Below are positions 4,786 through 38,682 of a stretch of 64,000 bases of DNA, piece after piece. Under the pieces are notes generated by a model, which worked only from the letters and a program-made list of their open reading frames with translations, was not told the origin of the DNA and did not search any database. The stretch comes from Pseudactinotalea suaedae. GTDB lineage: Bacteria; Actinomycetota; Actinomycetes; Actinomycetales; Beutenbergiaceae. The stretch's first letter is position 1; every line of letters begins with the position of its first letter. Location of the stretch: the NCBI RefSeq assembly GCF_009733815.1, contig NZ_WNXY01000003.1:1-64000 (forward strand), in the 5' to 3' direction. Position numbers and translations under genes: made by a program.

Positions 4786-6531
4786 GTGTCCATCGTGACA
4801 GCAACGGCCCTCACCGCGCAGACCCGCACCGAAGCCCTGGCAGCCATGAGCGATGACGCCGGGCTCGACGTCCTCGTCGTCGGTGGCGGCGTCACCGGCG
4901 CCGGCATCGCCCTGGATGCCGCCACCCGCGGCTTGCGGACCGGCATCGTCGAGGCGCAGGACTGGGCGAGCGGCACCTCCTCCCGCTCCAGCAAGCTCGT
5001 GCACGGCGGCCTGCGCTACCTGCAGATGCTCGACTTCCACCTGGTGCACGAGGCGCTCAACGAGCGCGACCTGCTGCTGTCCGAGCTCGCACCGCACCTG
5101 GTGCGCGCCGTGCCGTTCTTGTACCCGCTGGAGCACCGCGTCTGGCAGCGTTTCTACGTCGGGTCCGGGGTGGGCCTGTACGACGCGCTGGCCTCGCTGT
5201 CCTCCCGCCGTCGTGCGACCCCGTTCCACAAGCACCTCTCCCACACCCAGCTCCACAAGGTCTTCCCCGACCTGCGCTCCGACGCCGCGATCGGGGCGAT
5301 CCAGTACTGGGACGCCCAGGTCGACGACGCCCGCCTGGTCGTCACCCTGGTCCGCACCGCCGCCGCCTACGGCGCGCTCGCCGCGTCCCGCACCCAGGTC
5401 GTCGAGCTCACCAAGCAGGGCGAGCAGGTCACCGGTGCCGTCGTCGTCGACCTCGAGACCGGTGAGCAGCGCACCATCAAGGCCACGACGGTCATCAACG
5501 CGACCGGGGTCTGGACCGAGAAGACCGAGGCCCTGGCCGGCACCGAGGGCGGCCTGCGCGTGCTGGCGAGCAAGGGCATCCACATCGTGGTCCCCCGCGA
5601 GCGCATCCGGGGCGAGCGAGGCCTGATCCTGCAGACCGAGAAGAGCGTCCTGTTCGTGATCCCGTGGTCGCGGTACTGGGTGATCGGCACCACCGACACC
5701 GCCTACACCGAGGACCCGGTGCACCCGGTCGCCACCGCCGAGGACATCGACTACGTGCTCGACCACGCCAACGCGGTCCTGCGCGACCCGCTCACGCGCG
5801 ACGACGTGATCGGCACCTGGGCAGGGCTCCGCCCGCTGCTGCAGCCCGGCACCAAGGAGGGCACCTCCTCCGCCAAGGTCTCGCGCGAGCACACCACCGC
5901 CTCCCCCACCCCCGGGCTGGTGGTCATCGCCGGCGGCAAGCTCACGACCTACCGCGTGATGGCCAAGGACGCCGTGGACTTCGCCCTGGGCGAGCAGGCC
6001 AGGACGACGCCCTCGATCACCGACCGTGTGCCGCTGGCCGGCGCCGTCGGGTTCGCGACCGCCCGGCGCAAGGCGCGCGGCTGGGCCGACACCTATGGCT
6101 GGACCAAGCAGATCACCGACCACCTGCTGCACCGCTACGGCGGTCAGCTGCGCGACATCGTGGCGGCGATCGAGACCCAGCCCGACCTCGCGAAGCCTCT
6201 CGAGGGCGCCCCCGACTACCTCCGTGCCGAGATCGCGTTCGCGGCGACGCACGAGCAGGTGGTCCACCTCGAGGACGTGATGCTCCACCGCACCCGCCTC
6301 ACCTACGAGCAGCGCGACGGCGGAGCCGCGGCTCTCGACGAGATCGTCGAGATCCTCACGCCGATCCTCGGGTGGGACGCCGAGCGGGCGGCGGCTGAGA
6401 AGCAGTCCTACCTCGACCGACGGGCGGCCGAGGAGGCCGCCGCACAGACCACCAGCGATGCCGAAGGCGCGCTGGCCAGGGCTCGGGCGCGCGACATCGT
6501 CCCGATGCGTCCCCTCGACGCGCCTACCTGA
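4786..6531 (+). CDS. glpD: Aerobic glycerol-3-phosphate dehydrogenase GlpD
   Basis: This FAD enzyme oxidises sn-glycerol 3-phosphate to dihydroxyacetone phosphate and passes electrons to the membrane quinone pool. The 581 residues start with the FAD-binding VVGGGVTGAGIALDAATRG near residue 30 and continue with the family signature SSRSSKLVHGGLRYLQ. Further on are VIPWSRYWVIGTTDT, GTWAGLRPLLQPG and the C-terminal FAD contact GGKLTTYRVMAKDAVD. The length matches the family. GAAGGGAG lies just before two GTG codons (4786 and 4795); the second has 11 bases of spacing and the first only 2, so the exact start is uncertain. It is the first gene of the glycerol cluster, followed by glpF and glpK. Confidence 0.95.
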   Translation: MSIVTATALTAQTRTEALAAMSDDAGLDVLVVGGGVTGAGIALDAATRGLRTGIVEAQDWASGTSSRSSKLVHGGLRYLQMLDFHLVHEALNERDLLLSELAPHLVRAVPFLYPLEHRVWQRFYVGSGVGLYDALASLSSRRRATPFHKHLSHTQLHKVFPDLRSDAAIGAIQYWDAQVDDARLVVTLVRTAAAYGALAASRTQVVELTKQGEQVTGAVVVDLETGEQRTIKATTVINATGVWTEKTEALAGTEGGLRVLASKGIHIVVPRERIRGERGLILQTEKSVLFVIPWSRYWVIGTTDTAYTEDPVHPVATAEDIDYVLDHANAVLRDPLTRDDVIGTWAGLRPLLQPGTKEGTSSAKVSREHTTASPTPGLVVIAGGKLTTYRVMAKDAVDFALGEQARTTPSITDRVPLAGAVGFATARRKARGWADTYGWTKQITDHLLHRYGGQLRDIVAAIETQPDLAKPLEGAPDYLRAEIAFAATHEQVVHLEDVMLHRTRLTYEQRDGGAAALDEIVEILTPILGWDAERAAAEKQSYLDRRAAEEAAAQTTSDAEGALARARARDIVPMRPLDAPT

Positions 6532-6619
6532 GCCCGGTGCCGCGCAGCGGCATGCTGTCGGTGTGGCGCATCGGGGCGCTCACACCCTTCACCCCCTCGA
6601 TGACGAGAAAGAGAGTCTG

Positions 6620-7354
6620 ATGGACATCATCATCCCGGAGGCAGTGGGCACGTTCCTGCTGATCCTCCTCGGCTGCGGCGTCGTCGCGAACGTCGTGCTG
6701 GCCGGCACCAAGGGCAACGGCGGGGGCTGGCTGCTCATCAACTTCGGATGGGGACTCGGCGTGTTCGCCGGTGTCTACGCCGCCGTCGACACCGGTGCTC
6801 ACATCAACCCGGCCGTCACGTTCGGGCTGTGGGCCGCGGGCGGGGACCTCGCACCGGAGATCCCGGCCACCGTCTCGAACGTGCTGATGTACCTGGTCGG
6901 CCAGTTCATCGGTGCGATCCTGGGTGCGGTGTTCTGCTGGCTCGCCTACAAGCAGCACTTCGACGACGAGCCGGACCCCGCGAACAAGCTCGCGGTGTTC
7001 TCGACCGGCCCGGCGAAGCGCTCCTACGGCTGGAACACCGTCACCGAGGTGATCGCCACCTTCGTGCTGGTGTTCGTCGTGATCTCGTTCGCGGGAACCC
7101 CCAGTGAGCTCGGCCCGCTGGCCGTGGCGCTGCTGGTGGTCGGTATCGGCGCCAGCCTCGGTGGTCCCACCGGCTACGCGATCAACCCCGCACGTGACCT
7201 CGGACCGCGCATCGCGCACGCGATCCTGCCGATCAAGGGCAAGGGCTCCTCGGACTGGGGGTACTCCTGGGTCCCGGTGCTCGGTCCGGTCATCGGAGGC
7301 GTGCTGGCGGGGCTGCTCGCCGACCCGCTACTCAGCTTCCTGCCGCTGGACTGA
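6620..7354 (+). CDS. glpF: Glycerol facilitator GlpF (aquaglyceroporin)
   Basis: The 244-residue MIP-family channel has six membrane segments and both half-helix motifs: the first NPA at about residue 63 in HINPAVTFG and the second in YAINPARDLGPR. The Asp after the second NPA (NPARD) is the hallmark of glycerol-conducting rather than water-only channels. It admits glycerol by facilitated diffusion for phosphorylation by GlpK. The start is the ATG at 6620, after an AAAGAGAG stretch. It lies 88 bp downstream of glpD, and a strong hairpin separates it from glpK. Confidence 0.94.
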   Translation: MDIIIPEAVGTFLLILLGCGVVANVVLAGTKGNGGGWLLINFGWGLGVFAGVYAAVDTGAHINPAVTFGLWAAGGDLAPEIPATVSNVLMYLVGQFIGAILGAVFCWLAYKQHFDDEPDPANKLAVFSTGPAKRSYGWNTVTEVIATFVLVFVVISFAGTPSELGPLAVALLVVGIGASLGGPTGYAINPARDLGPRIAHAILPIKGKGSSDWGYSWVPVLGPVIGGVLAGLLADPLLSFLPLD

Positions 7355-7363
7355 TCTCGCTAC

Positions 7364-7394
7364 GGGGTGCCGTCGCTGATCTCGACGGCACCCC
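7364..7394 (+). terminator. Strong hairpin between glpF and glpK
   Basis: GGGGTGCCGTC (7364-7374) and GACGGCACCCC (7384-7394) form a perfect 11-bp stem with a 9-base loop. No T-run follows. It could be an attenuator or partial terminator, or an mRNA stability element that sets glpF and glpK expression separately. Confidence 0.65.
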
Positions 7395-7461
7395 GCGCAC
7401 CGCCCCGAACCACTGCGCCGTCATCTCGGCGCGCCACACGATGAAGTGAAGGGAACCCCTC

Positions 7462-8982
7462 ATGGCTGACGAGAAGTTTGTCCTCGCGATCGACCAGGGC
7501 ACCACCAGCACCCGCGCGATCGTCTTCAACCACTCCGGCGAGATCGTCGAGAGCGGCCAGCTCGAGCACGAGCAGATCTTCCCGAAGGCGGGCTGGGTCG
7601 AGCACGACCCGGTCGAGATCTGGCGCAACACGCGCGAGGTGGTCGCGCTGGCGCTGACCCGCGCCAACATCACCAAGGACAGCCTGGCCGCGGTGGGCAT
7701 CACCAACCAGCGCGAGACCGCCGTCGTCTGGGACAAGAACACCGGCGAGCCCGTCTACAACGCGATCGTCTGGCAGGACACCCGCACCCAGAAGATCGTC
7801 GACGAGCTCGGCGGCGGTGACGGCGACAAGTACAAGGCGAAGGTCGGTCTCCCGCTCGCGACCTACTTCTCCGGCCCCAAGGTCAAGTGGATCCTCGACA
7901 ACGTCGAGGGCGCGCGTGAGAAGGCCGAGGCCGGCGACCTCCTTTTCGGCAACACCGACACCTGGGTGCTCTGGAACCTCACCGGCGGCACCTCGGGCGG
8001 CGTCCACGTCACCGACGTGACCAACGCCAGCCGCACCATGCTGATGGACCTGTCGACGCTCGACTGGGACGCCGACATCGCCTCCGACATGGGCATCCCG
8101 CTCTCGATGCTGCCCGAGATCAGGTCCTCCTCCGAGGTCTACGGCGAGGGTCGGCCCAACGGCCACCTCGCCGGCATCCCGATCGCGGGGATCCTGGGAG
8201 ACCAGCAGGCTGCGACCTTCGGGCAGGCGTGCTTCGAGGTCGGCATGGCCAAGAACACCTACGGCACCGGCAACTTCATGCTCATCAACACCGGCACCGA
8301 GCAGGTGCCGAGCGAGAACGGGCTGCTGACGACCGTCTGCTACAAGATCGGCGACCAGCCGGCCGTGTACGCGCTCGAGGGCTCGATCGCCGTCACCGGC
8401 TCGCTCGTGCAGTGGCTGCGCGACAACCTCGGCATCATCTCCTCCGCACCGGAGATCGAGGACCTCGCGAAGGGCGTCGAGGACAACGGCGGCGCCTACT
8501 TCGTGCCGGCGTTCTCGGGGCTGTTCGCCCCGCACTGGCGCTCCGACGCCCGCGGCGCCCTGGTCGGTCTGACCCGGTACGTCAACAAGGGCCACATCGC
8601 GCGGGCCGCGCTGGAGGCCACGGCCTTCCAGACCCGCGAGGTGCTCGATGCCATGAACGCGGACTCGGGTGTGGACCTGACCGAGCTCAAGGTCGACGGC
8701 GGCATGATCGCCAACGAGACGCTCATGCAGTTCCAGGCGGACATCCTGGGCGTGCCGGTGGTGCGTCCGAAGGTCGCGGAGACCACGGCGCTCGGTGCGG
8801 CCTACGCGGCCGGCATCGCCGTGGGGTTCTGGAACGGCGAGCAGGACGTCATCGACAACTGGGCCGAGGACAAGCGCTGGGAGCCCTCGATGGAGGACGC
8901 CGAGCGCGACAGGCTCTACCGCAACTGGAAGAAGGCCGTCACGAAGACCTTCGACTGGGTCGACGAGGACACCGAGGCCTGA
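7462..8982 (+). CDS. glpK: Glycerol kinase GlpK
   Basis: This FGGY-family kinase phosphorylates glycerol with ATP to sn-glycerol 3-phosphate, the substrate of GlpD. The 506 residues begin with the phosphate-binding [14 protein letters not shown] and contain [12 protein letters not shown], the catalytic Asp in AIVWQDTRT, and the ATPase motif [12 protein letters not shown]. The FGGY signature region [19 protein letters not shown] and the second ATP-binding motif [18 protein letters not shown] follow. The length is standard. The ATG at 7462 has GAAGGGAAC upstream. A GC-rich terminator-like hairpin follows the gene. Confidence 0.97.
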
Positions 8983-11331: not shown

Positions 11332-12252
11332 ATGATCGCCGTCTTGACGTCCCTGGGCACGATGGCAGCCATCGTCGCCGTGGGATGGCTGCTCGGCCAC
11401 CTCAAGGTCCTCGGCGACGGCGCGCAGCTGGTCATCGCCAAGCTCGTGTTCGTGGTCGCGACCCCGTCGCTGCTGTTCGCCACGATCGCCGAGTCCGACC
11501 TGCACCTGCTGCTCACCCGGACCGCGCTCGTCACCGTGGTGACGACGAGCGCGATGGCCGTGATCGCCGCGCTCGTGCTGCGCCTCGTGCTGCGCCGGGA
11601 CGCCGGACAGACGACGATCGGCGCGCTCTCGGCCTCCTATCTCAACGCCGGCAACCTCGGGCTGCCGCTGTCGGTCTACATGCTCGGCAACCCGGTCGCG
11701 ATCGTCCCGACGCTGCTGTTCCAGCTGCTGGTGCTGGCACCTGCGGCGTTCGTGGTGATGGAGTCGCGCGGCAGCGGCCGGGGTGGCCGAGCGGTGCTGA
11801 TCGGGCTCGGTCGGTCGCTGCGCAACCCGATCATCATCGCGGCCCTGGCCGGGGTGGCGCTGGCGCTGCTGCCGGACGCCCCGACGTGGCTGCTCAACCC
11901 GTTCCACCTGGTCGGCGCCGCCGCGGCGCCGCTGGCCCTGATCATGCTCGGCATGACGTTGTCCGGGCCGCAGGCCAGCGGCAGCCGCGCCCCGGCCCCG
12001 GACCTCGCGCTCGCCGTGGTGCTGCGCACGATCGGCCACCCGGTCGCCGCATGGGCGCTGGGCACCTGGCTCGGCCTCGAGGGTGCGGCGCTGTTCGGCG
12101 TGGTGGCGATGGCTGCGCTGCCCACGGCGCAGAACGTCCTCGTCTACGCGATGCGCTACGGCAGTGGTCAGCCGATCGCCCGCGACTCCCAGCTGGTCAC
12201 CACCGTGCTCGCGGTCCCGGTCCTGATCGTCGTGGCGCTGCTGTTCGGCTGA
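11332..12252 (+). CDS. AEC-family transporter (auxin efflux carrier / malonate-type permease)
   Basis: The 306-residue protein has about ten hydrophobic segments arranged as two five-helix halves, as in the AEC (TC 2.A.69) family. Family-typical motifs visible include the GNLGLPLSVYMLGN segment in TM5 and PTAQNVLVYAMRY near the C terminus. Bacterial members move organic acids such as malate, malonate or lactate. Its divergent position to lldD suggests a hydroxy-acid substrate. The ATG at 11332 follows GGGGTGAG at a workable distance. Confidence 0.85.
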   Translation: MIAVLTSLGTMAAIVAVGWLLGHLKVLGDGAQLVIAKLVFVVATPSLLFATIAESDLHLLLTRTALVTVVTTSAMAVIAALVLRLVLRRDAGQTTIGALSASYLNAGNLGLPLSVYMLGNPVAIVPTLLFQLLVLAPAAFVVMESRGSGRGGRAVLIGLGRSLRNPIIIAALAGVALALLPDAPTWLLNPFHLVGAAAAPLALIMLGMTLSGPQASGSRAPAPDLALAVVLRTIGHPVAAWALGTWLGLEGAALFGVVAMAALPTAQNVLVYAMRYGSGQPIARDSQLVTTVLAVPVLIVVALLFG

Positions 12253-14347: not shown

Positions 14348-15250
14348 TCAGCCCTTGACGGCGCCCTGGGTGACGCCTTCCATCACCCAGCGCTGGGCGA
14401 GCAGGTAGGCGATGATCGCGGGCGCCATGGCCATCAGGTAGGACGCGAAGGCGATGTTGTAGTTGCTGCTGAACTGGCTCTGGAACAGGTTCTGCCGCAC
14501 CGGAAGGGTCTGCATCGCCGGATCGGAGATGATGAGCGACGGCATCATGAAGTCGTTCCACGCGTAGAGGAACGCGAAGATGCCGACCGTCGCGCTCATC
14601 GGCGCCAGCAGCGGGAAGATCAGCTTCCAGAAGGTCTGCCAGGTCGTCGCCCCGTCGATCCGCGCGCTCTCCTCCAGCTCGATGGGGATCGAGCGCAGGA
14701 ACGCGCTGAACAGCAGCACGCTGAAGCTCAGCTGGAACATGCTGGCGAGCAGGATGACGCCCAGCGGGTTGTCGAGCCCGAAGCGGCCGGTGAGCTGGAT
14801 CTGCGGCAGCGCCACGACCGGGAACGGGATGAACATCGCACCGAGCAGGTAGAAGAACGCCCCCTTGAACAGCCGGTTGTCCCAGTTGCGGATGATGGCG
14901 TAGGACGCGAAGGCGGCCAGGAAGATCGTCAGCGCCACGGTCCCGGCGGTGACCAGCACGGAGACACCGAACCCGACTCCGGCGTCCGTCAGCTGCCAGG
15001 CGTCGATGAAGCCCTGGACGCTGATCGGCGAGGGCAGCGAGAACGCGTTGCCGTCGACCGACTGGGACGAGGTCTTGAAGGCCATCGCGATGGTGACGTA
15101 CAGGGGCAGCAGCACGGTGACGGCGCAGAGGAGCAGGATGATCGTCGTCGGCCAGCTCACCCGCTCCAGCACCACTCTGGGTCGTCTGTTGCGGGAGCCC
15201 GCTCGGATGCCGGGTGTGGTGGGCGGAGCCTGGGCAGTGGTGGCGACCAT
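14348..15250 (-). CDS. Carbohydrate ABC transporter permease (MalG type)
   Basis: The 300-residue inner-membrane subunit has six transmembrane segments and the cytoplasmic EAA loop EESARIDGATTWQTFWKLIFPLLAP (near residues 190-215) that docks to the ATPase. It is a CUT1 permease of the MalG/UgpE group. Its ATG overlaps the stop of the partner permease by one base (TGATG). No ATPase gene is present; actinobacterial CUT1 importers usually share a housekeeping MsiK-type ATPase encoded elsewhere. The operon order is binding protein, MalF-type, MalG-type. Confidence 0.9.
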   Translation of the reverse strand: MVATTAQAPPTTPGIRAGSRNRRPRVVLERVSWPTTIILLLCAVTVLLPLYVTIAMAFKTSSQSVDGNAFSLPSPISVQGFIDAWQLTDAGVGFGVSVLVTAGTVALTIFLAAFASYAIIRNWDNRLFKGAFFYLLGAMFIPFPVVALPQIQLTGRFGLDNPLGVILLASMFQLSFSVLLFSAFLRSIPIELEESARIDGATTWQTFWKLIFPLLAPMSATVGIFAFLYAWNDFMMPSLIISDPAMQTLPVRQNLFQSQFSSNYNIAFASYLMAMAPAIIAYLLAQRWVMEGVTQGAVKG

Positions 15251-16143
15251 CAGACGGAGTTCCTTCCGCGCGTCACGACGAGCTGGAGAACGGCGATGAC
15301 GACCGCGACGACGAAGAACATCGTGGCGGTGGCCATCTGATAGGCGTAGTCGCCGGAGTTGAACCCGGAGATGATCGTCATCGCGATGCTGCGGGTCGCG
15401 GTGCCCGGCCCGCCGTTGGTGAGACCGACGATGACGTCGTAGGCGTTGAGGAAACCCTTGAACCCGAGAATGACGTTGATGAGGACGTAGCCGGCGACGA
15501 GCGGCAGCGTGATCCGGAGCAGCTGCTGCCGCCCGCTCGCGCCGTCGATCGCGGCGGCCTCGTAGACGTCACCCGGGATGGAGAGCAACCCCGCGATGTA
15601 GATCAGCAGCGCGCTGGGGATCGCCTGCCAGGCCGTCACGATCACGATCGCGATCCACGCCAGGTCCTCGCTCGCCAGCATGCTGGTCTGCAGCGCCTCG
15701 ATCCCGAGCAGGCTGCCGAGCGCCGGCACCGAGTTCTGGAAGAGGAACTGGAAGACGTAGGCGATGATGATGCCGGACACGACCATCGGGATGACGAAGA
15801 TGGCCCGCAGCCCGGTCTTGAACCGGATGCGTGCGACCAGCCCGACCGCGAGCAGCAGCGCGCACACGTTCACCACGACGACGGTGACGAGCGCGAACCC
15901 GAAGGTGAACAGGAAGCTCGAGGCGATCGCCGGATCACTGAACGCCGCGATGTAGTTCGTGAAGCCGCTGAACTGCCACTCACCGATGCCGATGGAGTCG
16001 GTGAAGCTGAAGAAGATGCCGATGATCCCCGGCACGGTGATGGCGAGCGTGAACAGGATGAGCGCGGGCAGCAGGAACGCGTAGTAGATCGGCTCGACCT
16101 TGCGGGCGCTGCGCGCGGTCGGCCTCGCGGTGGTGGCGGTCAT
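15250..16143 (-). CDS. Carbohydrate ABC transporter permease (MalF type)
   Basis: The 297-residue CUT1 permease has an N-terminal helix (YYAFLLPALILFTLAI), further membrane spans and the EAA loop YEAAAIDGASGRQQLLRITLPLVAG, followed by NGGPGTATRSIAM typical of MalF/UgpA proteins. It starts at ATG 16143; the preceding binding-protein gene ends with a 4-bp overlap (stop 16140-16142). The open frame extends upstream, but that portion is antisense-phase coding of the binding protein, not a real N terminus. Confidence 0.9.
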   Translation of the reverse strand: MTATTARPTARSARKVEPIYYAFLLPALILFTLAITVPGIIGIFFSFTDSIGIGEWQFSGFTNYIAAFSDPAIASSFLFTFGFALVTVVVVNVCALLLAVGLVARIRFKTGLRAIFVIPMVVSGIIIAYVFQFLFQNSVPALGSLLGIEALQTSMLASEDLAWIAIVIVTAWQAIPSALLIYIAGLLSIPGDVYEAAAIDGASGRQQLLRITLPLVAGYVLINVILGFKGFLNAYDVIVGLTNGGPGTATRSIAMTIISGFNSGDYAYQMATATMFFVVAVVIAVLQLVVTRGRNSV

Positions 16144-17462
16144 CGCCCGTTCTCCTCGTTCTCGTTGGACGGGGCGGGCTGACGGAACGCCAGCCGTGCC
16201 CAGTCGGCGTCGAGCGTGGCCAGCTGGGTGGCGGGATCCGCTCCCAGGATGATCGCCTGCGCGTAGTTCTCGGTCGGGATCGAGCGCGGGATGAGGATGC
16301 CTGGCCCCTGGTAGACCTGACCGGCCTCGTAGTACTCGAGCATGCCCGCGACGCGTGGGTCGCTGGGCTGGGCGCCACCCTCCTGGGGGACGAACCCGAG
16401 CTGGGACTCGTTGTAGGCGGTGATGACCTCCGGTTGGAACAGGTACTCCAGGAAGTCCCGAGCCGACTCCTGGTGGTCCGAGCCCTCGGGGATCATGGCG
16501 GCGAGGTCGATGTTGACCCGGACCGCCAGGTCGGCAGGGTCCTCGGTCATCGGCAGCGGGAAGGTGCCGAGCTCGAGGTCGGGTGCCGTCAGCGCGAGCT
16601 CGCTGAAGGCCCACGGTCCCTGCAGGTACATGGCGCCCGCGCCGCTGGCGAAGTCGACATTTCCCCGGTCGTAGGTCCGGCTCGCCGCGTCGGCGTTCGT
16701 GTAGCTCTCCGCCAGCTCCACCATCTTCTCGACGGGTTCGAGGAACTGCTTCTGGAAGGCCACCTCGGAGTCCGGGCCCACCTCGGTGCCCTGTGCTGCG
16801 AGACGGTCGTAGAAGTCGATGACGTCCAGCGACCCGCCGATCGAGTAGTCGAACCAGCCCTGGTTGATGGTCCAGGCGTCGGCGAAGGTCGCGTAGAACG
16901 GGTCGATCCCGGCGGCCTTCAGGGTCTCGGCCACCTCGATGAGCTCGCTCCACGTCTGCGGGACCTCGAGGTCGTGCTCGGCGAAGATCTCCATGTTGTA
17001 GATGACGGAGGCGCCCATCACCGAGTAGGGCAGCGCCGGGGTACGCCCCTCGCAGACGCCGTACTGGTCGAGCAAGGGCTGCAGGTCGGTGCGCATCAGC
17101 GACGCCGCCTCGGTCTCGGAGAGATCGGAGAGCACGCAGCGCTGCACGAACCGGGCGATCTCGTAGTTGTAGTTGGCGAGCATGAGGTCGGGCGGGTTGC
17201 CACGGACGAAGCTCGCCGCGATCGCGTCGGGTCCCGAGGTGTCCATGATGACGCGGACGTCATCCTGCGAGGCGTTGTAGTCGGCGACGACCTGGGTCAT
17301 GTACTCGATCGCCTCGCGCTTGCTGAAGGTGAACCGGATCTCCTCGGGTCCGCCGTCACCGCCTGCGCCGCAGGCACCCACGAGCACGAGTGCAGCAAGC
17401 GTGAGCGTCGCGGCGACCCGACGCCTCAGGCGGCGCGAGCGCGGCACGGGGATGGCGGCCAT
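16140..17462 (-). CDS. Extracellular sugar-binding lipoprotein of the ABC importer
   Basis: The 440-residue protein has a lipoprotein signal peptide: Arg-rich start, hydrophobic TLTLAALVLVGA, then the lipobox Cys in VGAC. The mature part follows the family 1 solute-binding fold, with YNASQDDVRVIM near the N terminus, an ALPYSVMGASVIYN ligand-lobe segment and WTINQGW. It would capture the sugar outside and deliver it to the two downstream permeases. The ATG at 17462 has AAGGAG five bases upstream; the in-frame GTG at 17468 is too close to that site. It heads the operon and is divergent from the LacI-PmoA fusion gene. Confidence 0.9.
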   Translation of the reverse strand: MAAIPVPRSRRLRRRVAATLTLAALVLVGACGAGGDGGPEEIRFTFSKREAIEYMTQVVADYNASQDDVRVIMDTSGPDAIAASFVRGNPPDLMLANYNYEIARFVQRCVLSDLSETEAASLMRTDLQPLLDQYGVCEGRTPALPYSVMGASVIYNMEIFAEHDLEVPQTWSELIEVAETLKAAGIDPFYATFADAWTINQGWFDYSIGGSLDVIDFYDRLAAQGTEVGPDSEVAFQKQFLEPVEKMVELAESYTNADAASRTYDRGNVDFASGAGAMYLQGPWAFSELALTAPDLELGTFPLPMTEDPADLAVRVNIDLAAMIPEGSDHQESARDFLEYLFQPEVITAYNESQLGFVPQEGGAQPSDPRVAGMLEYYEAGQVYQGPGILIPRSIPTENYAQAIILGADPATQLATLDADWARLAFRQPAPSNENEENGR

Positions 17463-17888
17463 GGTCACTCCTTCGGGAGGGCACCATCCGACCGATCGCG
17501 GTCGTCGTCGACCGCAGCCGGTAGGTGCAGGGCAGATCCTTCGTTGGACGCTACTGTCGTGCGGTCGATCAGAGGAGTACGAGTACTCGACGAATCACGT
17601 GCACCGTAGCACCGCTCGAGCGGGTCGGATCCGTGGTGGGGCGGATCGGCGCGGTGCCGGCCATCGGCGGTGACCCCCGAGCGGATCGTGATCGCCGGGG
17701 CCGTGGCCGAGGGCATGGAGCCAGCGCTCGCGATCGCCCACCGCCCTGTGGCGTCACCGCTGTCGTCCCGTGCCCCGGCACGCCCGCGCCGATGCCGCTG
17801 TGGGAGGCTGTAACCGCTTGCATCGCGGCCGCCCGAGGGCCGTGCGTCCGCGACGTCGTCACCGATGCGCCCACGGCAGGGAGGGAAC
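17463..17888. promoter_or_regulatory. Divergent promoter region with a perfect LacI-type operator
   Basis: The 426-bp gap separates the binding-protein operon from the LacI-PmoA fusion gene. At 17809-17822 TGTAACCGCTTGCA matches the LacI-family consensus TGnAAnCGnTTnCA at every fixed position. It lies 67 bp before the fusion gene. A second palindrome, CGAGTACTCG (17580-17589), is about 118 bp upstream of the binding-protein gene. I see no gene in the gap. Confidence 0.65.
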
Positions 17889-19775
17889 ATGAACGGTCCG
17901 CGTCACGCGACCATCGGCGACGTCGCGAAGCTCGCGGGGGTCTCCGTCGCCACGGTCTCACGGGTGATGAACGCCCACCCCGCGGTCAAGCCCGAGACCC
18001 TCGAGCGCGTCCGTGACGCCGCGGCCCAGCTGGACTACGTGCCCAGCAGCGCCGCACGCAGCCTCTCGCTCGGACGGACCCACACGGTCGCCCTGCTGAT
18101 GCCCGACCTGTCGAACCCGATGTTCCAGCAGGTGCTCCGCGGGGCGAACCGCGCGGCCGCTGCCGCCGGGTACCGGCTGCTCGTCAGCGACAGCGTCGAG
18201 GATCCCGAGGCGGAGGCGGACCTGGCGATCGAGGCGCGCCGCCGCTCGGACGCGCTCATCCTCTGCTCCCCCCGCATGTCGCCCCGCGACCTGCGCCGCG
18301 TGCTGTCCGCGACCGAGCCCGTCGTGCTGATCAACCGCGAGGCGGAGGCGGCGGGGGTGCCGTCGCTGGTGGCCGACTACGCCGAGGGGGTACGCATCCT
18401 GGTGCGGCGGCTGATGCGCCACGGCCACCGCTCGTTCGTGTACCTGTCAGGCCCGCCGCGCAGCATCCCGAACAGCGAGCGGGTGCAGGCGCTGCGCGTG
18501 CTCGCGCGTGAGCACGAGGAACTCACGCTCAGCGTGCTGCCCTGCGGCGGCGCGATCGAGGACGGCTACGCCGCGCTGGGTCCTGTGCTGGAGTCCGGGG
18601 CGACGGCGGTGCTCGCGTACAACGACGTCGTCGCCTTCGGCCTCCTCGGCAAGCTCAACGAGGCCGGCGTCGCCGTCCCCGGTGACATCTCGGTCGCGGG
18701 GTACGACGACATCCCGTTCTCGCGCTACGCCACCCCGCCGCTGACGACCATCTCGGTCCCCAAGGAGGAGCTCGGACGGCACGCCTGGGAGGAGGTCGAG
18801 CGGATGCTCGGCGGCGACCGGCGGGGCTCCACGCTCCGCTTCCCGCCGCGGCTCGTCGAGCGAGGCAGCACGGGTCCGGTGCCGCGTGAGCACATGCCGC
18901 CCGCGATCGCCGAGGTGGTCAACCCGGCGCTGGCCTGGCATCGCGACGACGACGACGTCGCGGCCGAGCTCAGTGTCGCCGGCGCGCTGCTCGCTCGCTA
19001 CGAGCGCCGCCCGGTCATGCCCGACGTCTACTCCCCGCGCCCCTACCTGCACCCGCTCTACACCCTCGCCGGCGCCGTGCTCACCGACGCCGGCGCCCCG
19101 GTGCACCGCCATCAGCACGGCATCTCGGTGGCGTTCCCCGACGTGGACGGCATCACCTACTGGGGCGGTCGCACCTATCTCGAGGACAGCGGTCCGGCGC
19201 TGCTGGCCAACCACGGCACCCAGATGTCGACCGAGCTCGTCACCGCGGGTGCCGCCACCGACGAGCGGCTCGTCTGGCACGGTCCCGACGGCGCCCACCA
19301 GCTGAGCGAGCGACGCCGCATCTCGGCCTCGATCCGGGACGACCGCGCGGGGTGGGAGCTGTCGTGGCGCAGTGCGCTGACCGCCGACGACCGTGACGTG
19401 GTCATCGCCAGCCCGGCGGGGAGCGGTCGCCCCGACGCGCGGTACGGCGGCATCTTCTGGCGGTTCCCCACGGTGGAGGGCGTCACGATTCACACGGCCG
19501 ACGGCGACGCGTCGGCGCACGGCGCTCGCTCACCCTGGGTGGCCCTCGTCCACCGCGACGAGACCAGGCCGTGGACGGTCGTGCTGCGCCAGGTCGGTGC
19601 CGCGCCGGTGCCGTGGCACGTCCGCACCGAGGGCTACCTCGCGCTGTGCCCGGCGATCGCCTGGGACGGCCCGGTGCGGATCGCTCGGGGCGAGACCTAC
19701 GAGATCGGGCTCGACGCCGTCGTGCTCGACGACGCCCTGACCCTCGAGGAGATCGAGGGGATCGCGCCTGCCTGA
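17889..19775 (+). CDS. LacI-family regulator fused to a PmoA/DUF6807-like domain
   Basis: The 628-residue protein is nearly twice the LacI length. Residues 1-335 are a complete LacI protein: HTH ATIGDVAKLAGVSVATVSRV with hinge helix, then a periplasmic-binding fold (VALLMPDLSNPMFQQVL; AYNDVVAFGLLGKL; SVAGYDDIPFSRY). Residues from about 345 to the end resemble the PmoA/DUF6807 family, with a His-rich HRHQHGISVAF, YWGGRTY and GGIFWRFP, a predicted beta-sandwich of unknown function. It likely represses the divergent ABC-esterase-kinase operon through the operator at 17809. The added domain may bind or modify the same sugar; that is inference. The ATG at 17889 has AGGGAGGG upstream. Confidence 0.8.
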   Translation: MNGPRHATIGDVAKLAGVSVATVSRVMNAHPAVKPETLERVRDAAAQLDYVPSSAARSLSLGRTHTVALLMPDLSNPMFQQVLRGANRAAAAAGYRLLVSDSVEDPEAEADLAIEARRRSDALILCSPRMSPRDLRRVLSATEPVVLINREAEAAGVPSLVADYAEGVRILVRRLMRHGHRSFVYLSGPPRSIPNSERVQALRVLAREHEELTLSVLPCGGAIEDGYAALGPVLESGATAVLAYNDVVAFGLLGKLNEAGVAVPGDISVAGYDDIPFSRYATPPLTTISVPKEELGRHAWEEVERMLGGDRRGSTLRFPPRLVERGSTGPVPREHMPPAIAEVVNPALAWHRDDDDVAAELSVAGALLARYERRPVMPDVYSPRPYLHPLYTLAGAVLTDAGAPVHRHQHGISVAFPDVDGITYWGGRTYLEDSGPALLANHGTQMSTELVTAGAATDERLVWHGPDGAHQLSERRRISASIRDDRAGWELSWRSALTADDRDVVIASPAGSGRPDARYGGIFWRFPTVEGVTIHTADGDASAHGARSPWVALVHRDETRPWTVVLRQVGAAPVPWHVRTEGYLALCPAIAWDGPVRIARGETYEIGLDAVVLDDALTLEEIEGIAPA

Positions 19776-19825: not shown

Positions 19826-22054
19826 TCAGGCGGTGAGCGGGATCTCGACGGCGGAGCCCGGGTCGAGAGCCACGGTCACGCTGGTCGTGCCGAACCTGAT
19901 GGTCCGCTCCCCCGCGCGCTCGCCCGTGATGCTGGCCTGCGTGAGTCGACCGTCGGCCCAGGCCAGGTCGAGGGTGCAAGGGCCGGGCGTCCGGATGCCC
20001 CGGAGCCGCCCGTTGCGCCACGCGCCGGGGAGCGCCGGGAGCAGGTGGATCGTCTCGCCGTCGGTCTGCACGAGCATCTCGAGGATGGCGGCGGCGCCAC
20101 CGAAGTTGCCGTCGATCTGGAACGGCGGGTGGGCGTCCAGCAGGTTCGGGTAGGTGCGCCGGGTGTCGAGGAGCAGGCGGAGCACCTGGTGGGCGTGGTC
20201 CCCGTCGCGCAGCCGCGCCCACAGCGCGATCCGCCACGCGGTGGCCCATCCGGTCGACTCGTCTCCCCGGTCCTGCAGGCTCACGCGCGCGGCAGCCGCC
20301 AGCGCCGGCGTGCCGTCCGGGCTGATCTGCCGGCTGGGGTAGAGGCCGTAGAGGTGGGACACGTGCCGGTGCTGCTGCTCGGGTGCCTGCGCGTCCCAGT
20401 CCTGCTGCCACTCCTGCAGCTGGCCGTGCGACCCGACCCGGTTCGGGGGCAACCGCTGCGCCGCGGCGCGGATCTCCTCCACCAGCGCGGGGTCGACCTC
20501 GAGGGTCTCCGCGGCCTCGGTGGTCGCCCCGAACAGGTCCCGCAGGATCTGGGCGTCCATGACCGGTCCGGCCACGAGCGAGGTGCCGTGGTGGTGCTCG
20601 TTCTCGGGCGAGATCGAGGGTGAGGTCACCAGCGCGCCGGTGGCCTCGTCGACCACCAGCGTGTCGAGGAAGAACTCGCAGGCCCCGCGCAGCAGCGGGT
20701 AGATCGAGGCGAGGTAGGCGGCGTCGGGTGCGTAGCGGTAGCGGTCCCACAGGTGCAGCGTCAGCCAGGCACCTCCGGTGGGCCACATGCCCCAGCGGGC
20801 GCCGTCGATCGGCGCTGTCGCGCGCCACAGGTCGGTGTTGTGGTGGCACACCCATCCGCGGGCGCCGTACATCTCGCGCGCGGTCCGCTCGCCGCTGACG
20901 GCGATCTCCCGCACCAGCCGGTCCAGCGGTTCGACCAGCTCGGGCAGCGCTGCCGGCTCGGCCGGCCAGTAGTTCATCTCGGTGTTGATGTTGACCGTGT
21001 ACTTGCTGCCCCACGGCGGAGCGGTGTGCGGGTTCCAGATGCCCTGCAGGTTCGCGGGCTGGGTCCCCGGCCGGGACGAGCAGATCAGCAAGTAGCGGGC
21101 GTAGTCCAGGTACAGCGCGGCGAGCGCCGGGTCGTCCTCGGTCTCGTTCCTGCGCAACCGCTCGTCGGTCGGCAGGTCCGAATCGGGGCCGAGGTCCAGG
21201 TGCAGCCGGTCGAACAGCGCCCCGTGAGCGGCGGCGACATCGGCCGCGATCGCCTCGAAGCCCCGCCGCGCAGCCGTGGCCACCTGCTCGGCCGTGACGG
21301 CCGTCGGGTCACCGCTCAGATCGCCGGGACCCACGTAGCTGGTCGCGATCGCGATCAGCAGCGTGACCTCGTCGGCGCCCTCGATCACGAGCACCTCACC
21401 CGCGGCGCGCACGGCACCACCGGTGCTGACTGCGCGCACCCGGGCCGTGAACGTCAACGCTCCCGGCGTCTGCTCGTGCGGGTCGTTGCGGCCCGCGAGC
21501 ACCAGCTCGCTGCCCTCCGCCACGGCTCGTGCGTCCGTCAGCGGGCACGCGAAGCTCAGCCGCGCCGACACCGCACCGGGCGCGGAGGCGGCCAGGTGAA
21601 CGGCGATGACCTGGTCGCCGGGAGAGGCCACGACACGGCGTCGGTGCGTGACGCCGTCGGTCACCACCTCCGAGGAGGCCAGCGCGGTGGCGAGGTCGAG
21701 GGAGCGGCGGCTCTCGCCGTCGTCGGCCACACCGTCGAAGGCGATCACGAGGTCACCGAGCGTCGAGTACGCCGCCTGCTTGAGCGGCCGCGCCATCACG
21801 CCGCGGTCGGTGAGCTGGTCGGCCTCGAGGTAGCGGCCCTGCGCCAGCAGGTCCCGCACCCGCGGCAACGCCTCCGCGGCAGCGGGATTGATCGGGTCGT
21901 ACGGGCCGCCCGACCAGAGCGTGTCCTCGTTCAGCTGCAGCCGCTCGGTCGCGGCGCCGCCGTAGACCATCGCACCGAGCCGGCCGTTGCCCACCGGCAA
22001 CGCCTCGGTCCACTCCGATGCCGGTCGGTCGTAACGAAGGACGCGCTCGGTCAT
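19826..22054 (-). CDS. Glycoside hydrolase family 95 (alpha-L-fucosidase/alpha-L-galactosidase type)
   Basis: The 742-residue enzyme carries the GH95 layout: N-terminal beta domain ([30 protein letters not shown]), then an (alpha/alpha)6 barrel with [36 protein letters not shown] and [17 protein letters not shown]. By comparison with Bifidobacterium AfcA the Asn pair in NINTEMNYW, the Glu in SPENEH and the Asp in IDGNFGG are the catalytic set. There is no signal peptide, so it should act on imported oligosaccharides. It is the last gene of the xylA-xylB operon, overlapping xylB by 4 bp, which suggests fucosylated or L-galactosylated xyloglucan fragments as substrates. Confidence 0.88.
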
Positions 22055-23493
22055 CGGGTCAGGAAGAGCTGCGACGCCTCGGCGTAGCGCTCGCGGAGCC
22101 CGACGGCGGGGTCCTCGACCTCGTACGTCTGCGTCGCGTCGATCTCCCAGACCGGGGCCTCGGCTTCGCCCGAGAGCACCCAGGCGGCCTGGCGGGCGAC
22201 GCCGTCGGCGACGTACTCGCCCGGCTTCGGCACCACGACGGCCCTGCCGAAGACGCTCGGTGCGATCCGCCGAACCGCCTCCGACTGGGCCGCTCCGCCG
22301 ATGAGGATGATCCGCTCGACCGCGACCCCCTGCGCCACGAGCGCATCCATCGCGAACGCCAGCGAGCACAGCACGCCCTCGACGGCGGCCCTCGCCAGGT
22401 TGGCCGGGGTCGTGTTGGCGAGCCGGACTCCGTGGAGCGAGCCCGTGGAGTCGGGCAGGTTGGGCGTGCGCTCGCCCTCGAGGTAGGGCACCAGCACGAG
22501 TCCCTCGGCGCCGGGCGGCGCCGAGAGCGCGAGGTCGGCGAGCTCGGTGTGGGAGACCCCGAGGAGCCGACCGACGGCGTCGAAGGTGCGCGAGCCGTTG
22601 ATCGTGGCGAGCAGCGGCAGGTAGCGACCGGTCGCGTCGGAGAACCCGGCCACGAGACCGCTCACGTCGCGCGTCGGTGTGTCGGAGACCGCGGTGACCA
22701 CGCCGGAGGTGCCGATCGAGACCATCACGTCACCCGGGCGGGCACCGAGGCCGAGGGCAGCGCCCGCGTTGTCACCCGTGCCGGGGCCGATCACCAGGTC
22801 GCCCAGGCCGGCCCGTGCCTGCTCGCCCGGCCCGATCACCGCGGGCAGCCCGACCCGGCGCCCGAAGCCGCGCTCGAGGAGGTCGAACCGGTAGCTGTCG
22901 CTCGCGCCGTCGAAGTAGCCCGTGCCCGAGGCGTCGGAACGGTCGGTCACCAGGCGCGCCAGGCCGTCGGCGCTGAACCCCTCGCTGACGGGCCCGTCGC
23001 CGGCGATCCGCCAGGTCAGCCAGTCGTGCGGGAGCGCGACCGCCTCGACGCGCTCGGCGTTGCTCGGCTCGTGCTCGGCGAGCCAGCGCAGCTTCGTGAT
23101 CGTGAACGAGGCGACAGGGACGATCCCGACGGCGTCGGCCCACGCCTTCTCGCCCGAACCCGGTGTGCCGTCACCGAGCTCGGCGATCAGGTCGCGCGCA
23201 GCCTTCGCCGACCGGGTGTCGTTCCAGAGGAGTGCGTCACGGACCACGGCGCCCTCGCCGTCGAGCGCGACCATGCCGTGCTGCTGGCCGCCGACCGAGA
23301 GGGCTGCGACGTCGTCGAGCCCTCCCGCGGCGGCGCTGGCCTGCTGGAACGCGCTCCACCAGGCGTTCGGGTCGACCTCGGTGGCGTCGGGGTGCTTCGC
23401 CGAGCCGAAGCGCCGTAGCGCTCCGGTCTCGGCATCGCGGATGACGACCTTGCAGGACTGCGTCGAGGTGTCGACGCCGGCGACCAGAGGCAT
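22051..23493 (-). CDS. xylB: Xylulokinase XylB
   Basis: This FGGY kinase phosphorylates D-xylulose to xylulose 5-phosphate for the pentose phosphate pathway. The 480 residues show the phosphate-binding [16 protein letters not shown], the [14 protein letters not shown] and LLWNDTRS segments with catalytic Asp, [30 protein letters not shown], and the second ATP motif [16 protein letters not shown]. It starts nine bases after the xylA stop, and its own stop overlaps the GH95 start (ATGA). Length and motifs match actinobacterial XylB. Confidence 0.94.
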
Positions 23494-23502
23494 GAGACGT
23501 TC

Positions 23503-24684
23503 TTAGCCGATCAGGTGGTCGATGGCGAGCTGGTTGAGCTGCACGAAGTGGTACTCGCGCTCCCCGGCGGCGTCGGCGTCGAAGTCCTCGTGGGCGCTGC
23601 GGTCGGCCAGCAGGTCGGCGACGGACTCGCCCTCGGACAGCGTCGGCTCCGAGAGCTCGAGCACACCGCTGGCCGCGAAGGCCTCCTGCACCCGCGGGTC
23701 GGCGCGGTAGGCCTTGGCCTTCTCGGCGAGCAGCAGGTAGGTCTGCATGTTCGCGGCGGCGGACTCCCAGACGCCCTCGATGCCCTCGGTGCGGGAGGGC
23801 TTGTAGTCGAAGTGGCGCGGGCCGTCGTAGCGGGGGCCGCCGCCCGGGAAGCCGTTCTCGAGGAGGTCGACGGTGAAGAACGCCGAGAGCAGGTCGCCGT
23901 GACCGAACGCGAGGTCCTGGTCGAACTTGATCGAGCGCTGCCCGTTGAGGTCGATGTGGAAGAGCTTGTCGCTCCACAGCGCCTGGCCGATGCCGGTGGT
24001 GAAGTTCAGACCCGCCATCTGCTCGTGGCCGACCTCGGGGTTGAGGCCCACGATGTCGCCGTGCTCGAGCTGGGCGATGAAGCCCAGCGCGTGGCCGATG
24101 GTGGGCAGCAGGATGTCGCCGCGGGGCTCGTTCGGCTTGGGCTCCAGCGCGATCTTGAGCCCGTAGCCCTTCTCCTTGATGTAGGCGGCGGCGGTGTCGA
24201 CGCCCTCGGCGTAGCGGTTGAGGGCGGCGTAGGTGTCCTTGACACCGTCGTACTCGGAGCCCTCGCGCCCGCCCCACATCACGAACGTGCTCGCGCCGAG
24301 CTGGGCGGCGAGGTCGATGTTGCGCAGCACCTTGCGGAGCGCGAACCGGCGCACGCCGCGGTCGTTGGAGGTGAAGCCGCCGTCCTTGAAGACCGGGTGG
24401 CTGAACAGGTTCGTCGTCACCATCTCGATCTCGAGGCCTGCCGCGTCGGTGGCGGCCTTGAAGTCGGTCCAGATCTTCTCGCGGGTGGCGTCGTCGGTGC
24501 CGAAGGGCACCACGTCGTCGTCGTGGAACGTCACGGCCCAGGCGCCGAGCTCGGCGAGCTTGGTGGCGTACTCGCGCGGGTCGAGGGCGGGGCGGGTGGC
24601 GGAACCGAACTGGTCGTTGGCGAGCCAGCCGACGGTCCACAGACCGAAGGAGAACTTGTCGTCAGGGGTGGGCTTGCGGACCAT
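23503..24684 (-). CDS. xylA: Xylose isomerase XylA
   Basis: This metal-dependent TIM-barrel isomerase converts D-xylose to D-xylulose. The 393 residues are of the short class I type found in actinobacteria. Motifs include [10 protein letters not shown] at the N terminus, [11 protein letters not shown] with the active-site His, [20 protein letters not shown] with metal-binding Glu, [12 protein letters not shown], and [20 protein letters not shown] with the metal-binding Asp residues. The ATG at 24684 has GGAG six bases upstream; an in-frame ATG further up would add residues foreign to the family. It heads the xylA-xylB-GH95 operon. Confidence 0.96.
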
Positions 24685-24783
24685 GGCGGGCTCCGTTGCT
24701 CGAGACCCAGACCGCGCTGCGAGGCCGATCGAGGACCACAGAGTCCTCAGATCCCTCGACGCGTGCGTGGGAGCGGGTTTGTT

Positions 24784-24821
24784 GTTGTTCACAACTTATC
24801 GGGATCGCCGGCCACGGTCAA
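24784..24821 (-). promoter_or_regulatory. xylA promoter with overlapping operator
   Basis: On the minus strand TTGACC (24821-24816) and TAAGTT (24798-24793) have a 17-bp spacer. The inverted repeat GTTGT-TC-ACAAC (24784-24795) overlaps the -10 and the predicted start site, the right place for a repressor. The likely binder is the divergent LacI-type protein, although this dyad is not a classic CG-centred LacI site. The leader before xylA would be about 100 bases. Confidence 0.6.
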
Positions 24822-24872
24822 GATCTCGACGACGGACCGACGGCGGTCCTGCCGCGCGAGCGGGAACGCGCT

Positions 24873-24878
24873 TACCCT
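24873..24878 (+). promoter_or_regulatory. -10 element of the divergent xyl-locus LacI gene
   Basis: TACCCT lies six bases before the ATG at 24885, as for a leaderless transcript. No Shine-Dalgarno sequence is present before the ATG. No clear -35 is visible. Confidence 0.45.
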
Positions 24879-24884
24879 GAGCGC

Positions 24885-25910
24885 ATGCCAGGACCGGTGA
24901 CACTGAGCGACGTCGCGCGCGAGGCCGAGGTCTCGCTCGCGACCGCGTCCCGTGCGATCAACGGCTCCGCGAACCGGACCGTGCGGCCCGAGCTGCGCGA
25001 GCGGGTGCTCGCGGCCGCCGAACGGCTGCACTACTCCCCCGACGCGAACGCGCAGGCGATGGCCCGGGGCCGCACCACCACGATCGGGCTGATCGTCCAC
25101 GACATCGCCGACCCGTACTTCTCCTCGATCGCGGCAGGCGTCACGGCCGCGGCCGACCAGCTCGGGCTCGTCGTGACGCTGCTGACCACGCAGCACCAGC
25201 GGGGCCGTGAGCAGCAGTTCGTCGAGGTGCTGCAGAGCCAGCGCGCCCGCGCGATCCTCATCGCGGGCGGTCGCTACGACGACGCCGACGGCACGGAGTC
25301 CTTGTCCCAGGCTCTCGCCGGCTACATGGCCTCCGGCGGTGCGGTCGCCCTGATCGGCCAGCCGCTGCCGGACGTCAGCACGGTGGCGATCGGCAACACC
25401 AGCGGCGCGATCGAGCTGGCGCAGCGCATGCACGGGCTCGGCTACCGGCGCTTCGGCGTGCTCGCCGGCCCGGAGGGCCACATCACCGCGCGGGACCGAC
25501 GCGACGGCTTCGTGCAGACCCTCGCCGACCTCGGCGCACCCGTGGCCCCGGGAGCGATCGTCGAGTGCGCCTTCACCCGCGACGGCGGCTACGAGGGCAT
25601 GCGTGACCTGCTGAGCCGGGACCTCGCCGTCGACCTGGTGTTCGCCGTCAACGACGTGATGGCGGTCGGCGCCATGGCGGCCGCCCGCGACGCGGACCGC
25701 GAGGTCGGGGCCGACGTGGCGGTCGCCGGGTTCGACGACATCGTCACGCTCCGCGACGTCAACCCGGGGCTGACCACCGTGCGGCTCCCGCTCGACGAGC
25801 TCGGCGCCAAGGCGATCGAGCTCGCCCTGGCCGGTCCAGCTGCCGAGGCCACCGTCGTGGAGGTCGACGGCGAGGTCGTGGTCCGCGCGTCGACACCCCC
25901 TCGGGCCTGA
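24885..25910 (+). CDS. LacI-family transcriptional regulator (probable xylose repressor)
   Basis: The 341-residue regulator has the LacI HTH VTLSDVAREAEVSLATASRAING with the hinge helix PDANAQAMARGR, then the two-lobed sugar-binding domain (TIGLIVHDIADPYFSSIAAGV; FAVNDVMAVGAMAAARD; VAVAGFDDIVTLRDVNPGLTTVRLP). It is divergent from xylA-xylB-GH95 and is the natural candidate for their repressor, with xylose or a xylo-oligosaccharide as effector. The ATG at 24885 lacks a ribosome binding site but has a -10 element at leaderless spacing. An in-frame start further upstream would overlap the xylA promoter and was rejected. Confidence 0.87.
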   Translation: MPGPVTLSDVAREAEVSLATASRAINGSANRTVRPELRERVLAAAERLHYSPDANAQAMARGRTTTIGLIVHDIADPYFSSIAAGVTAAADQLGLVVTLLTTQHQRGREQQFVEVLQSQRARAILIAGGRYDDADGTESLSQALAGYMASGGAVALIGQPLPDVSTVAIGNTSGAIELAQRMHGLGYRRFGVLAGPEGHITARDRRDGFVQTLADLGAPVAPGAIVECAFTRDGGYEGMRDLLSRDLAVDLVFAVNDVMAVGAMAAARDADREVGADVAVAGFDDIVTLRDVNPGLTTVRLPLDELGAKAIELALAGPAAEATVVEVDGEVVVRASTPPRA

Positions 25911-25943: not shown

Positions 25944-26122
25944 GTGGGACAGCGCCCACGTCGCCGCAGCGTGCCGCAGCGTCGGTGCGTGAGCGCCCAC
26001 ATTTCCGCAGCGGCGGTGGGACAGCGCCCACAGCGGGCCTCGGCGTGGGCGCTATCCCACCCCCGGTGCACCAGAGTGGGCGCTGTCCCACCGCCGCAGC
26101 ACCCGTGTGGGGGCTGCCGCAC
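25944..26122. repeat. Cluster of palindromic GTGGGACAGCGCCCAC repeats
   Basis: The 16-bp unit GTGGGACAGCGCCCAC occurs exactly at 25944-25959 and 26016-26031. Its reverse-complement forms are at 26045-26060 (one change) and 26076-26091 (exact). Degenerate copies lie near 25987-26000 and 26105-26122. Opposed copies can form large alternative hairpins. The array fills the gap between convergent genes, so it may act as a bidirectional terminator or be a dispersed REP-type element. No gene is seen in the gap. Confidence 0.8.
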
Positions 26123-26161
26123 CGACGCAGGGCGGGGGCCGCAAGAGGCGACCGGCGTGGG

Positions 26162-37646: not shown

Positions 37647-37652
37647 GGTTCA

Positions 37653-37658
37653 ACGCTA
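37653..37658 (-). promoter_or_regulatory. -10 element of the GH4 gene
   Basis: On the minus strand TAGCGT lies six bases before the ATG at 37646 (TAGCGT-TGAACC-ATG), again the leaderless layout. No -35 is clear, as expected for an activator-dependent promoter. Confidence 0.5.
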
Positions 37659-37727
37659 GGGACGGGCACCGGTGGAAACCTCCGGTCCTGATCGCGCTTC
37701 TTCCGGTTCTCTTGGTTGGATGGGCGC

Positions 37728-38564: not shown

Positions 38565-38611
38565 CGACCAGCCCGAGGCGGAACGCACGACGCTGATCGC
38601 ACACGAGCTCG

Positions 38612-38656
38612 TTGACACCGCCGAGGCCCTCGTTTAGGCTACGGAAAGCGCATTCC
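38612..38656 (+). promoter_or_regulatory. Promoter and LacI-type operator of the Gfo/Idh-TIM operon
   Basis: TTGACA (38612-38617) and TAGGCT (38635-38640) are separated by exactly 17 bp, the best housekeeping promoter in the window. GGAAAGCGCATTCC (38643-38656) follows immediately, covering the transcription start, and is a LacI-type dyad. Nearly the same site occurs at 49388 and 56041. Repression by a LacI protein, probably the one at 49456, is inferred. Confidence 0.75.
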
Positions 38657-38682
38657 CAGGGCCACGACCTCCAGGAGACCCC

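Follow-up and report, generated by a model that had tools for sequence, protein, structure and literature searches.

Why should a LacI-type repressor carry, behind a complete effector-binding core, a second full domain of another family? The question is raised by a gene of the actinobacterium Pseudactinotalea suaedae that lies in the window analyzed here, a stretch of 64,000 nucleotides of contig NZ_WNXY01000003.1. The gene, denoted P0001 (17889..19775, plus strand), is a single uninterrupted frame in the open-frame list, encoding 628 amino acids and ending with a stop codon at 19773-19775. The sequence GGGAGGG (17879-17885) lies directly 5' of the ATG at 17889; an alternative in-frame ATG 24 bases upstream would yield a protein of 636 amino acids, but it is the 17889 start that GGGAGGG adjoins. 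Pfam search identifies a LacI-type helix-turn-helix (HTH; residues 8-53, 17910..18047; PF00356, 63 bits), followed by a periplasmic-binding-protein-like core (residues 64-331, 18078..18881) that is matched by both Peripla_BP_1 (PF00532; residues 64-304, 89 bits) and Peripla_BP_3 (PF13377; residues 172-328, 113 bits), and in a phmmer search of the PDB, residues 7-331, comprising the HTH and the core, align with the structures of CcpA, RbsR, PurR, and LacI. With these two parts, P0001 is a member of the LacI/GalR family, and it may resemble the same repressors also in the operator-like palindrome upstream of the gene. Beyond a linker, delineated as the gap between the Pfam matches (residues 332-359, 18882..18965), the DUF6807 (PF14100) domain occupies residues 360-624 (18966..19760), an assignment that draws on Pfam and genome searches, the AlphaFold2 model, Foldseek, and VIA-align. 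The Pfam match scores 197.8 bits, against a gathering score of 27, and spans positions 3-267 of the 270 in the profile, that is, a complete domain, with the boundary between the two halves located between residues 331 and 360. The solved LacI/GalR members differ in this respect: the 47 matched sequences are 274-381 residues long, so that none has room for an extra domain of 270 residues, whereas P0001 has about 290 residues more. With the DUF6807 family, P0001 shares the complete domain and differs by the N-terminal LacI part and two substitutions, D405V and H409Q. An earlier note, made by reading the sequence, had placed a LacI half and a PmoA/DUF6807-like C-terminal half in this frame; the coordinates and both halves are borne out by the frame and the Pfam matches, and the reservation that the C-terminal part might not belong to this family is removed by the score of the match at residues 360-624.

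AlphaFold2, run on residues 340-628 with four sequences, produced a best model of five with a pLDDT of 75.2 (57-66 for the other four) and a pTM of 0.78. Residues 401-407, which hold positions D405 and H406 of the motif discussed below, are within a stretch of pLDDT below 50, and the model of the full-length protein was poor (pLDDT 54.6, pTM 0.39) and was left out of the fold assignment. The top PDB match of the domain model in Foldseek is Slr1438 (E 2.6e-5), one of 14 matches that reach E 0.001, which include GalM, beta-galactosidases, phosphorylases, the YidC periplasmic domain, and an NDH subunit. Among the best 50 matches listed, VIA-align gave Z scores of 12.8-15.2 over 189-234 residues, with a chain of the NDH-PSI supercomplex (9grx, 15.2), Slr1438 (15.1), Bacillus subtilis GalM (14.6), and Escherichia coli b2544 (14.1), and ranked putative aldose epimerases and glycosidase domains alongside Slr1438 and GalM. 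The domain of P0001 is thus predicted, from a model of moderate quality, to adopt a beta supersandwich, which we take to be the galactose-mutarotase-like fold; sharing a fold in itself shows no function. The likeness to galactose-mutarotase-like proteins (aldose 1-epimerase, hexose-6-phosphate mutarotase) resides in the predicted fold, whereas similarity of sequence profiles was not found. PF01263 (aldose 1-epimerase) is absent from the Pfam matches of P0001 at E up to 0.01, and when its profile was compared by hhalign to that of 16 aldose-epimerase domains from related genomes, the probability was 2.4%. Searching the PDB sequences with the domain returned no match at E up to 1, and a 19-sequence profile returned only three chance-level matches, with E about 1. 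Thus, the domain search and structure prediction that the earlier note had proposed led to DUF6807 and a mutarotase-like predicted fold, and its characterization of the domain as "probable carbohydrate-active or sensing" fits this fold match and the surrounding sugar genes.

The name PmoA is a misnomer for DUF6807/PF14100, a family that was formerly labelled methane oxygenase/PmoA. Kinship to the particulate methane monooxygenase was rejected, as no monooxygenase family appears among the Pfam matches (E up to 0.01) and the model is beta-rich and mutarotase-like. The old name still misleads: a 2023 metatranscriptome study (PMC10291797), in the portion available, employs PF14100 as the model for PmoA, beside PmoB and PmoC, and with PF14100 being DUF6807, of mutarotase-like predicted fold, PmoA counts of this kind may not represent methane monooxygenase. 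In the available portions of two other articles, a PF14100 protein, Lac161_ORF9, is reported to share a possible operon with two beta-galactosidases that were new at the time (PMC5342196), and DUF6807 is named only by its DUF number (PMC10971088). For no DUF6807 protein did the literature and PDB sequence searches yield a ligand, an activity, or a structure, and the literature searched, with subscription papers and InterPro outside its scope, yielded no description of a LacI-DUF6807 fusion; in the available text of an article on LacI regulons (PMC4052901), five fusion-type terms occur zero times. For this family of unknown function, the predicted fold, the class of its partner enzyme, and the regulatory context lead to testable roles.

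To trace the distribution of the fusion, DUF6807 was searched for in a sample of 396 genomes of the phylum and a sample of 396 genomes of the window's order, and LacI and DUF6807 were both sought by HMM at every match listed. In the phylum sample, DUF6807 is present in 21 genomes, and the fusion in only three of these, namely, that of P. suaedae, G225, and G343, which all belong to the window's order. Within the order sample, DUF6807 is found in 89 genomes, and LacI and DUF6807 share one frame in 45, from 13 genera and 6 families, so that the architecture, for which the earlier note had proposed a survey, recurs well beyond this gene. The named carriers include Pseudactinotalea terrae (84% identity), placed in Micrococcales by the NCBI taxonomy, and Ruania rhizosphaerae (63%). 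None of the last 17 DUF6807 matches scanned by HMM is a one-frame fusion, and in a plasmid collection, none of the 1529 matching records reaches 80% coverage of the protein at a single location. The 45 genomes contribute 47 distinct fused domains to a total of 151 distinct domain sequences; after three shorter than 200 residues were dropped, these 47 were aligned with 101 domains not fused to LacI, some of them from MocA-DUF6807 proteins and some from genomes outside the order. Long N-terminal extensions at other loci were tried as candidates for further fusions and discarded: DUF6807 was the only domain seen in 8 of the 10 proteins scanned, so at least those eight extensions carry no known domain.

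Comparison of the fused and unfused domains reveals a D-H-x-x-H motif, defined in this analysis rather than in a published description of the family. Its D405, H406, and H409 are conserved in all 101 aligned domains that are not fused to LacI and in all 17 added ones (118/118). Among the 47 LacI fusions, by contrast, the motif is intact in 32 and broken in 15, with H409Q in 13, D405 replaced by V or L in 6, all of which also have Q409, and H406R in 2. In the alignment, the copy in the window reads V-H-R-H-Q at residues 405-409 (19101..19115), thus carrying both D405V and H409Q. Judged by residue, the losses fall into three lineages, namely, a clade of 11 alignment rows that includes the window, L144 with L149, and L131 with L139. 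Fisher tests, which ignore kinship, gave 5.7e-9 for fusion versus loss (with the 101 domains) and 4.6e-6 for MocA versus loss; by parsimony, the motif loss needs only 2 changes, with 1 to 2 independent pairs, a number at which a sign test cannot reach significance, so that both associations are suggestive only. Other charged residues persist. E474 and R476 (19308..19316) are kept in all 47 fused domains, as well as in 101/101 and 99/101, respectively, of the domains not fused to LacI, and R525 (19461..19463) and R579 (19623..19625) are each kept in all 148 domains of the main alignment; in 3 of the 17 added domains, which are distant members, R579 is aligned with A.

DUF6807 travels with Gfo/Idh/MocA dehydrogenases. 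At L105, and only there by Pfam, GFO_IDH_MocA and DUF6807 are confirmed within one protein; such MocA-DUF6807 proteins, which come from the same taxonomic order, likewise have DUF6807 as their C-terminal module and differ in that the partner is an NAD-binding oxidoreductase rather than a DNA-binding regulator. With a MocA HMM built from these same loci, MocA is detected inside the DUF6807 frame in 20 large and 2 small loci, one of the small ones being a repeat. By the same HMM, MocA (at least 499 bits) lies directly downstream of 22 of the 32 intact-motif LacI fusions, with a slight overlap between the domain matches of the fusion and the downstream MocA in 18 of the 22, whereas the remaining 10 intact fusions have no MocA in that position. 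In a separate gene call, one MocA cluster immediately follows the fusion in 13 loci, and in one more locus it lies one gene further on. None of the 15 broken-motif fusions has MocA directly downstream; upstream of 5 of these, at 2.0-3.6 kb, there is a weak MocA match (50-58 bits). In the window's case, L171 ends just past the fusion, and the absence is read from the gene that follows, a GH95 gene on the opposite strand. The neighbours of some fusions include sugar ABC importers, GH43, pectinesterase/GDSL, and galactarate/altronate-dehydratase genes. The P. suaedae genome encodes two further DUF6807 proteins with no LacI in their frames, one directly following a Gfo/Idh/MocA gene (L194:8073-8984, minus strand) and one in L193, near a ThuA gene and an altronate-dehydratase-like gene, the latter read by eye and named for its resemblance to L131:7957-9606, which is GD_AH by Pfam.

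LacI/GalR factors bind palindromic operators with a central CG. An operator-like site of this type, TGTAACCGCTTGCA (17809..17822), is located 67-80 bp before the start codon of P0001 and is the only match to TGNAANCGNTTNCA in the window, where the expected number of matches is 0.00. In the whole genome, TGNAANCGNTTNCA has two sites, this one and one other, and a reversed control pattern also has two, so it is the position of TGTAACCGCTTGCA, not its rarity, that speaks. The fusion gene of P. terrae is preceded by the same 14 bases, which stand 9 bases closer to the LacI domain and are unchanged even though the two genes differ at about 38% of their synonymous sites. The strict TGNAANCGNTTNCA is found upstream of 2 of the 47 fusions, whereas a looser core, AANCGNTT, occurs in the 350 bp preceding 22 of the 47, frequently in two copies spaced by 34 or 46 bp. 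Among the fusions with large flanks, the window's left out, this core is upstream of 21 of 46, compared to 46 of 417 other genes, with a p of 5e-8 that is optimistic because AANCGNTT was picked after the palindromes had been seen. No match to a sigma-70-type promoter or a terminator was found around the fusion gene. Judging from this arrangement, the likely targets of P0001 are its own gene and a divergent ABC operon on the minus strand, which encodes a putatively regulated solute-binding protein (SBP_bac_1/8; 16140..17468) and two permeases, the first (15250..16143) named by sequence reading and the second (14348..15250) by a BPD_transp_1 match. A short palindrome noticed by eye between the importer and fusion genes, CGAGTACTCG (17580-17589), is possibly a second regulator site.

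What, then, does the DUF6807 domain contribute to this repressor? In the reading that we favor, and to which we assign roughly an even chance of being correct, P0001 controls its own promoter and, probably, that of the divergent sugar ABC importer, and the enzyme-derived DUF6807 domain serves here as a second ligand sensor. The domain would descend from a sugar-handling protein of the mutarotase fold that worked with a Gfo/Idh/MocA dehydrogenase. The LacI core would bind the imported sugar; in the window's lineage, the DUF6807 domain would have lost catalysis and would still bind a related form of the sugar, and the two ligand signals together would set the affinity for DNA. In those fusions where the motif is intact and MocA follows directly, the domain may be a trigger enzyme that still turns over the inducer. 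The earlier note had proposed "dual sensing or moonlighting enzyme", and the sequence data, short of deciding between these options, lean differently in different proteins: because the window copy is without two residues kept in all 118 domains unfused to LacI, sensing is favored over catalysis in this copy, and because 22 of the 32 intact fusions have MocA directly downstream, an enzyme-regulator is possible there. The fusion hints that a former enzyme has come to form part of a genetic switch. Such a repressor, in which LacI is joined by a distinct second domain of sugar type, could also serve as a natural template for two-input sugar switches.

The competing explanation that holds up best extends the trigger enzyme to all fusions, the window's included. 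Under this scenario, DUF6807 would be an active sugar enzyme, with an epimerase-, hydrolase-, or lyase-like activity exerted together with a Gfo/Idh/MocA dehydrogenase, and induction would be linked to the turnover of the inducer. We consider this unlikely. The invariance of E474, R476, R525, and R579 in all the fusions, the MocA genes that directly follow 22 of the 32 intact ones, and the existence of MocA-DUF6807 proteins are all compatible with it. The window copy, however, is devoid of D405 and H409, its downstream neighbour is the GH95 gene on the opposite strand, and among the window genes scanned, one MocA was identified, at 38683.

The domain might instead be a structural appendage that binds no ligand and only sets the oligomeric state or stability of the repressor, a possibility that we rate still somewhat lower. 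In E. coli LacI, a C-terminal helix serves tetramerization, and DUF6807 occupies the position of this helix. The rates of evolution bear on this possibility in part. Between P. suaedae and P. terrae, dN/dS is 0.11 for the LacI part and 0.26 for DUF6807, so that the domain is constrained by purifying selection. The dN of DUF6807 relative to LacI is raised in the broken-motif proteins, as a purely structural role might suggest: its mean is 2.20 in 6 broken-motif pairs against 1.31 in 10 intact ones (Mann-Whitney p 0.0014), where the pairs are non-overlapping, hand-picked from the tree, and share ancestry; for all pairs (9 broken, 12 intact), the values are 2.21 and 1.35 (p 0.0016). The charged residues E474, R476, R525, and R579 nevertheless stay in all 47 fusions, and the ties of DUF6807 to MocA and sugar genes also speak against a mere appendage.

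The last explanation, that an assembly or sequencing error joined two neighbouring genes, could draw on the relatives in which LacI and DUF6807 are separate overlapping genes and on L198, where the two are in different frames with no stop at the junction, but is virtually eliminated by the same single-frame architecture in 45 of the 396 order genomes, which also excludes the frameshift that the earlier note had allowed for and makes P0001 a real single gene. In L006, L036, and L151, the separate genes overlap by 8, 4, and 4 bases, the LacI stop and the inferred DUF6807 start in another frame together forming GTGGCTGA, ATGA, and GTGA, respectively; with the stop of one gene overlapping the start of the next, the two genes look as if they were coupled in translation. 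In L006, DUF6807 is followed by a Gfo/Idh/MocA gene, again with a short overlap. The missing stop at the L198 junction makes a frameshifted fusion possible in that locus. In genome G592, where L198 and L205 are neighbouring, a DUF6807 domain, a strong MocA match, and the different-frame LacI/DUF6807 pair are close together on the same strand, an arrangement that may stem from a duplication or represent a split fusion copy. In the domain tree, which was built by a quick method without bootstrap and in which several unfused rows are long branches of unsure place, the fused rows form groups of 42 and 5 with unfused rows between them, an arrangement for which two changes suffice.

Returning to the second-sensor reading of P0001, these observations invite a scenario for its origin that we advance tentatively, as somewhat doubtful. 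The LacI regulator of a catabolic enzyme partnered with MocA would have captured this enzyme when their overlapping genes fused, and the catalytic-type residues would then have been lost in the window's lineage and two others, giving rise to a two-ligand repressor in which the enzyme fold would read a pathway intermediate and the LacI core would read the imported sugar. The intermediate stages of this evolution would be still alive in related genera: the series from separate genes through overlapping genes and intact-motif fusions to broken-motif fusions would let one trace an enzyme becoming a sensor in a repressor.

The genes around P0001 in the window encode, according to Pfam, an ABC importer, a GH95 enzyme, an FGGY kinase, and a xylose-isomerase-like protein. 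Adjoining the fusion, the stretch 19826-25910 contains the latter three, all on the minus strand, and a second LacI regulator on the plus strand; together with the ABC importer, this stretch may be a plant-polysaccharide or xylose locus. On the 5' side of the fusion, at 4786-8979 and 11332-12252, there are GlpD-, GlpF-, and GlpK-like genes, recognized by eye, and a relative of a Mem_trans carrier. In the same-family loci L161-L164, relatives of these glycerol genes come just before LacI-DUF6807, and the carrier comes just after it in L161, L162, and L164; given this gene order, the locus in the window may have been split by an inserted block. Another stretch of sugar genes, at 36255-39840, includes a family 4 glycosidase (minus strand) and a Gfo/Idh/MocA oxidoreductase (plus strand, 38683-39840). 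Finally, the window contains two adjacent arrays of 31-base repeats right after the second LacI regulator (25974-26130) and, at 58964-59058, a tandem array of two 45-base units with 96% matches.
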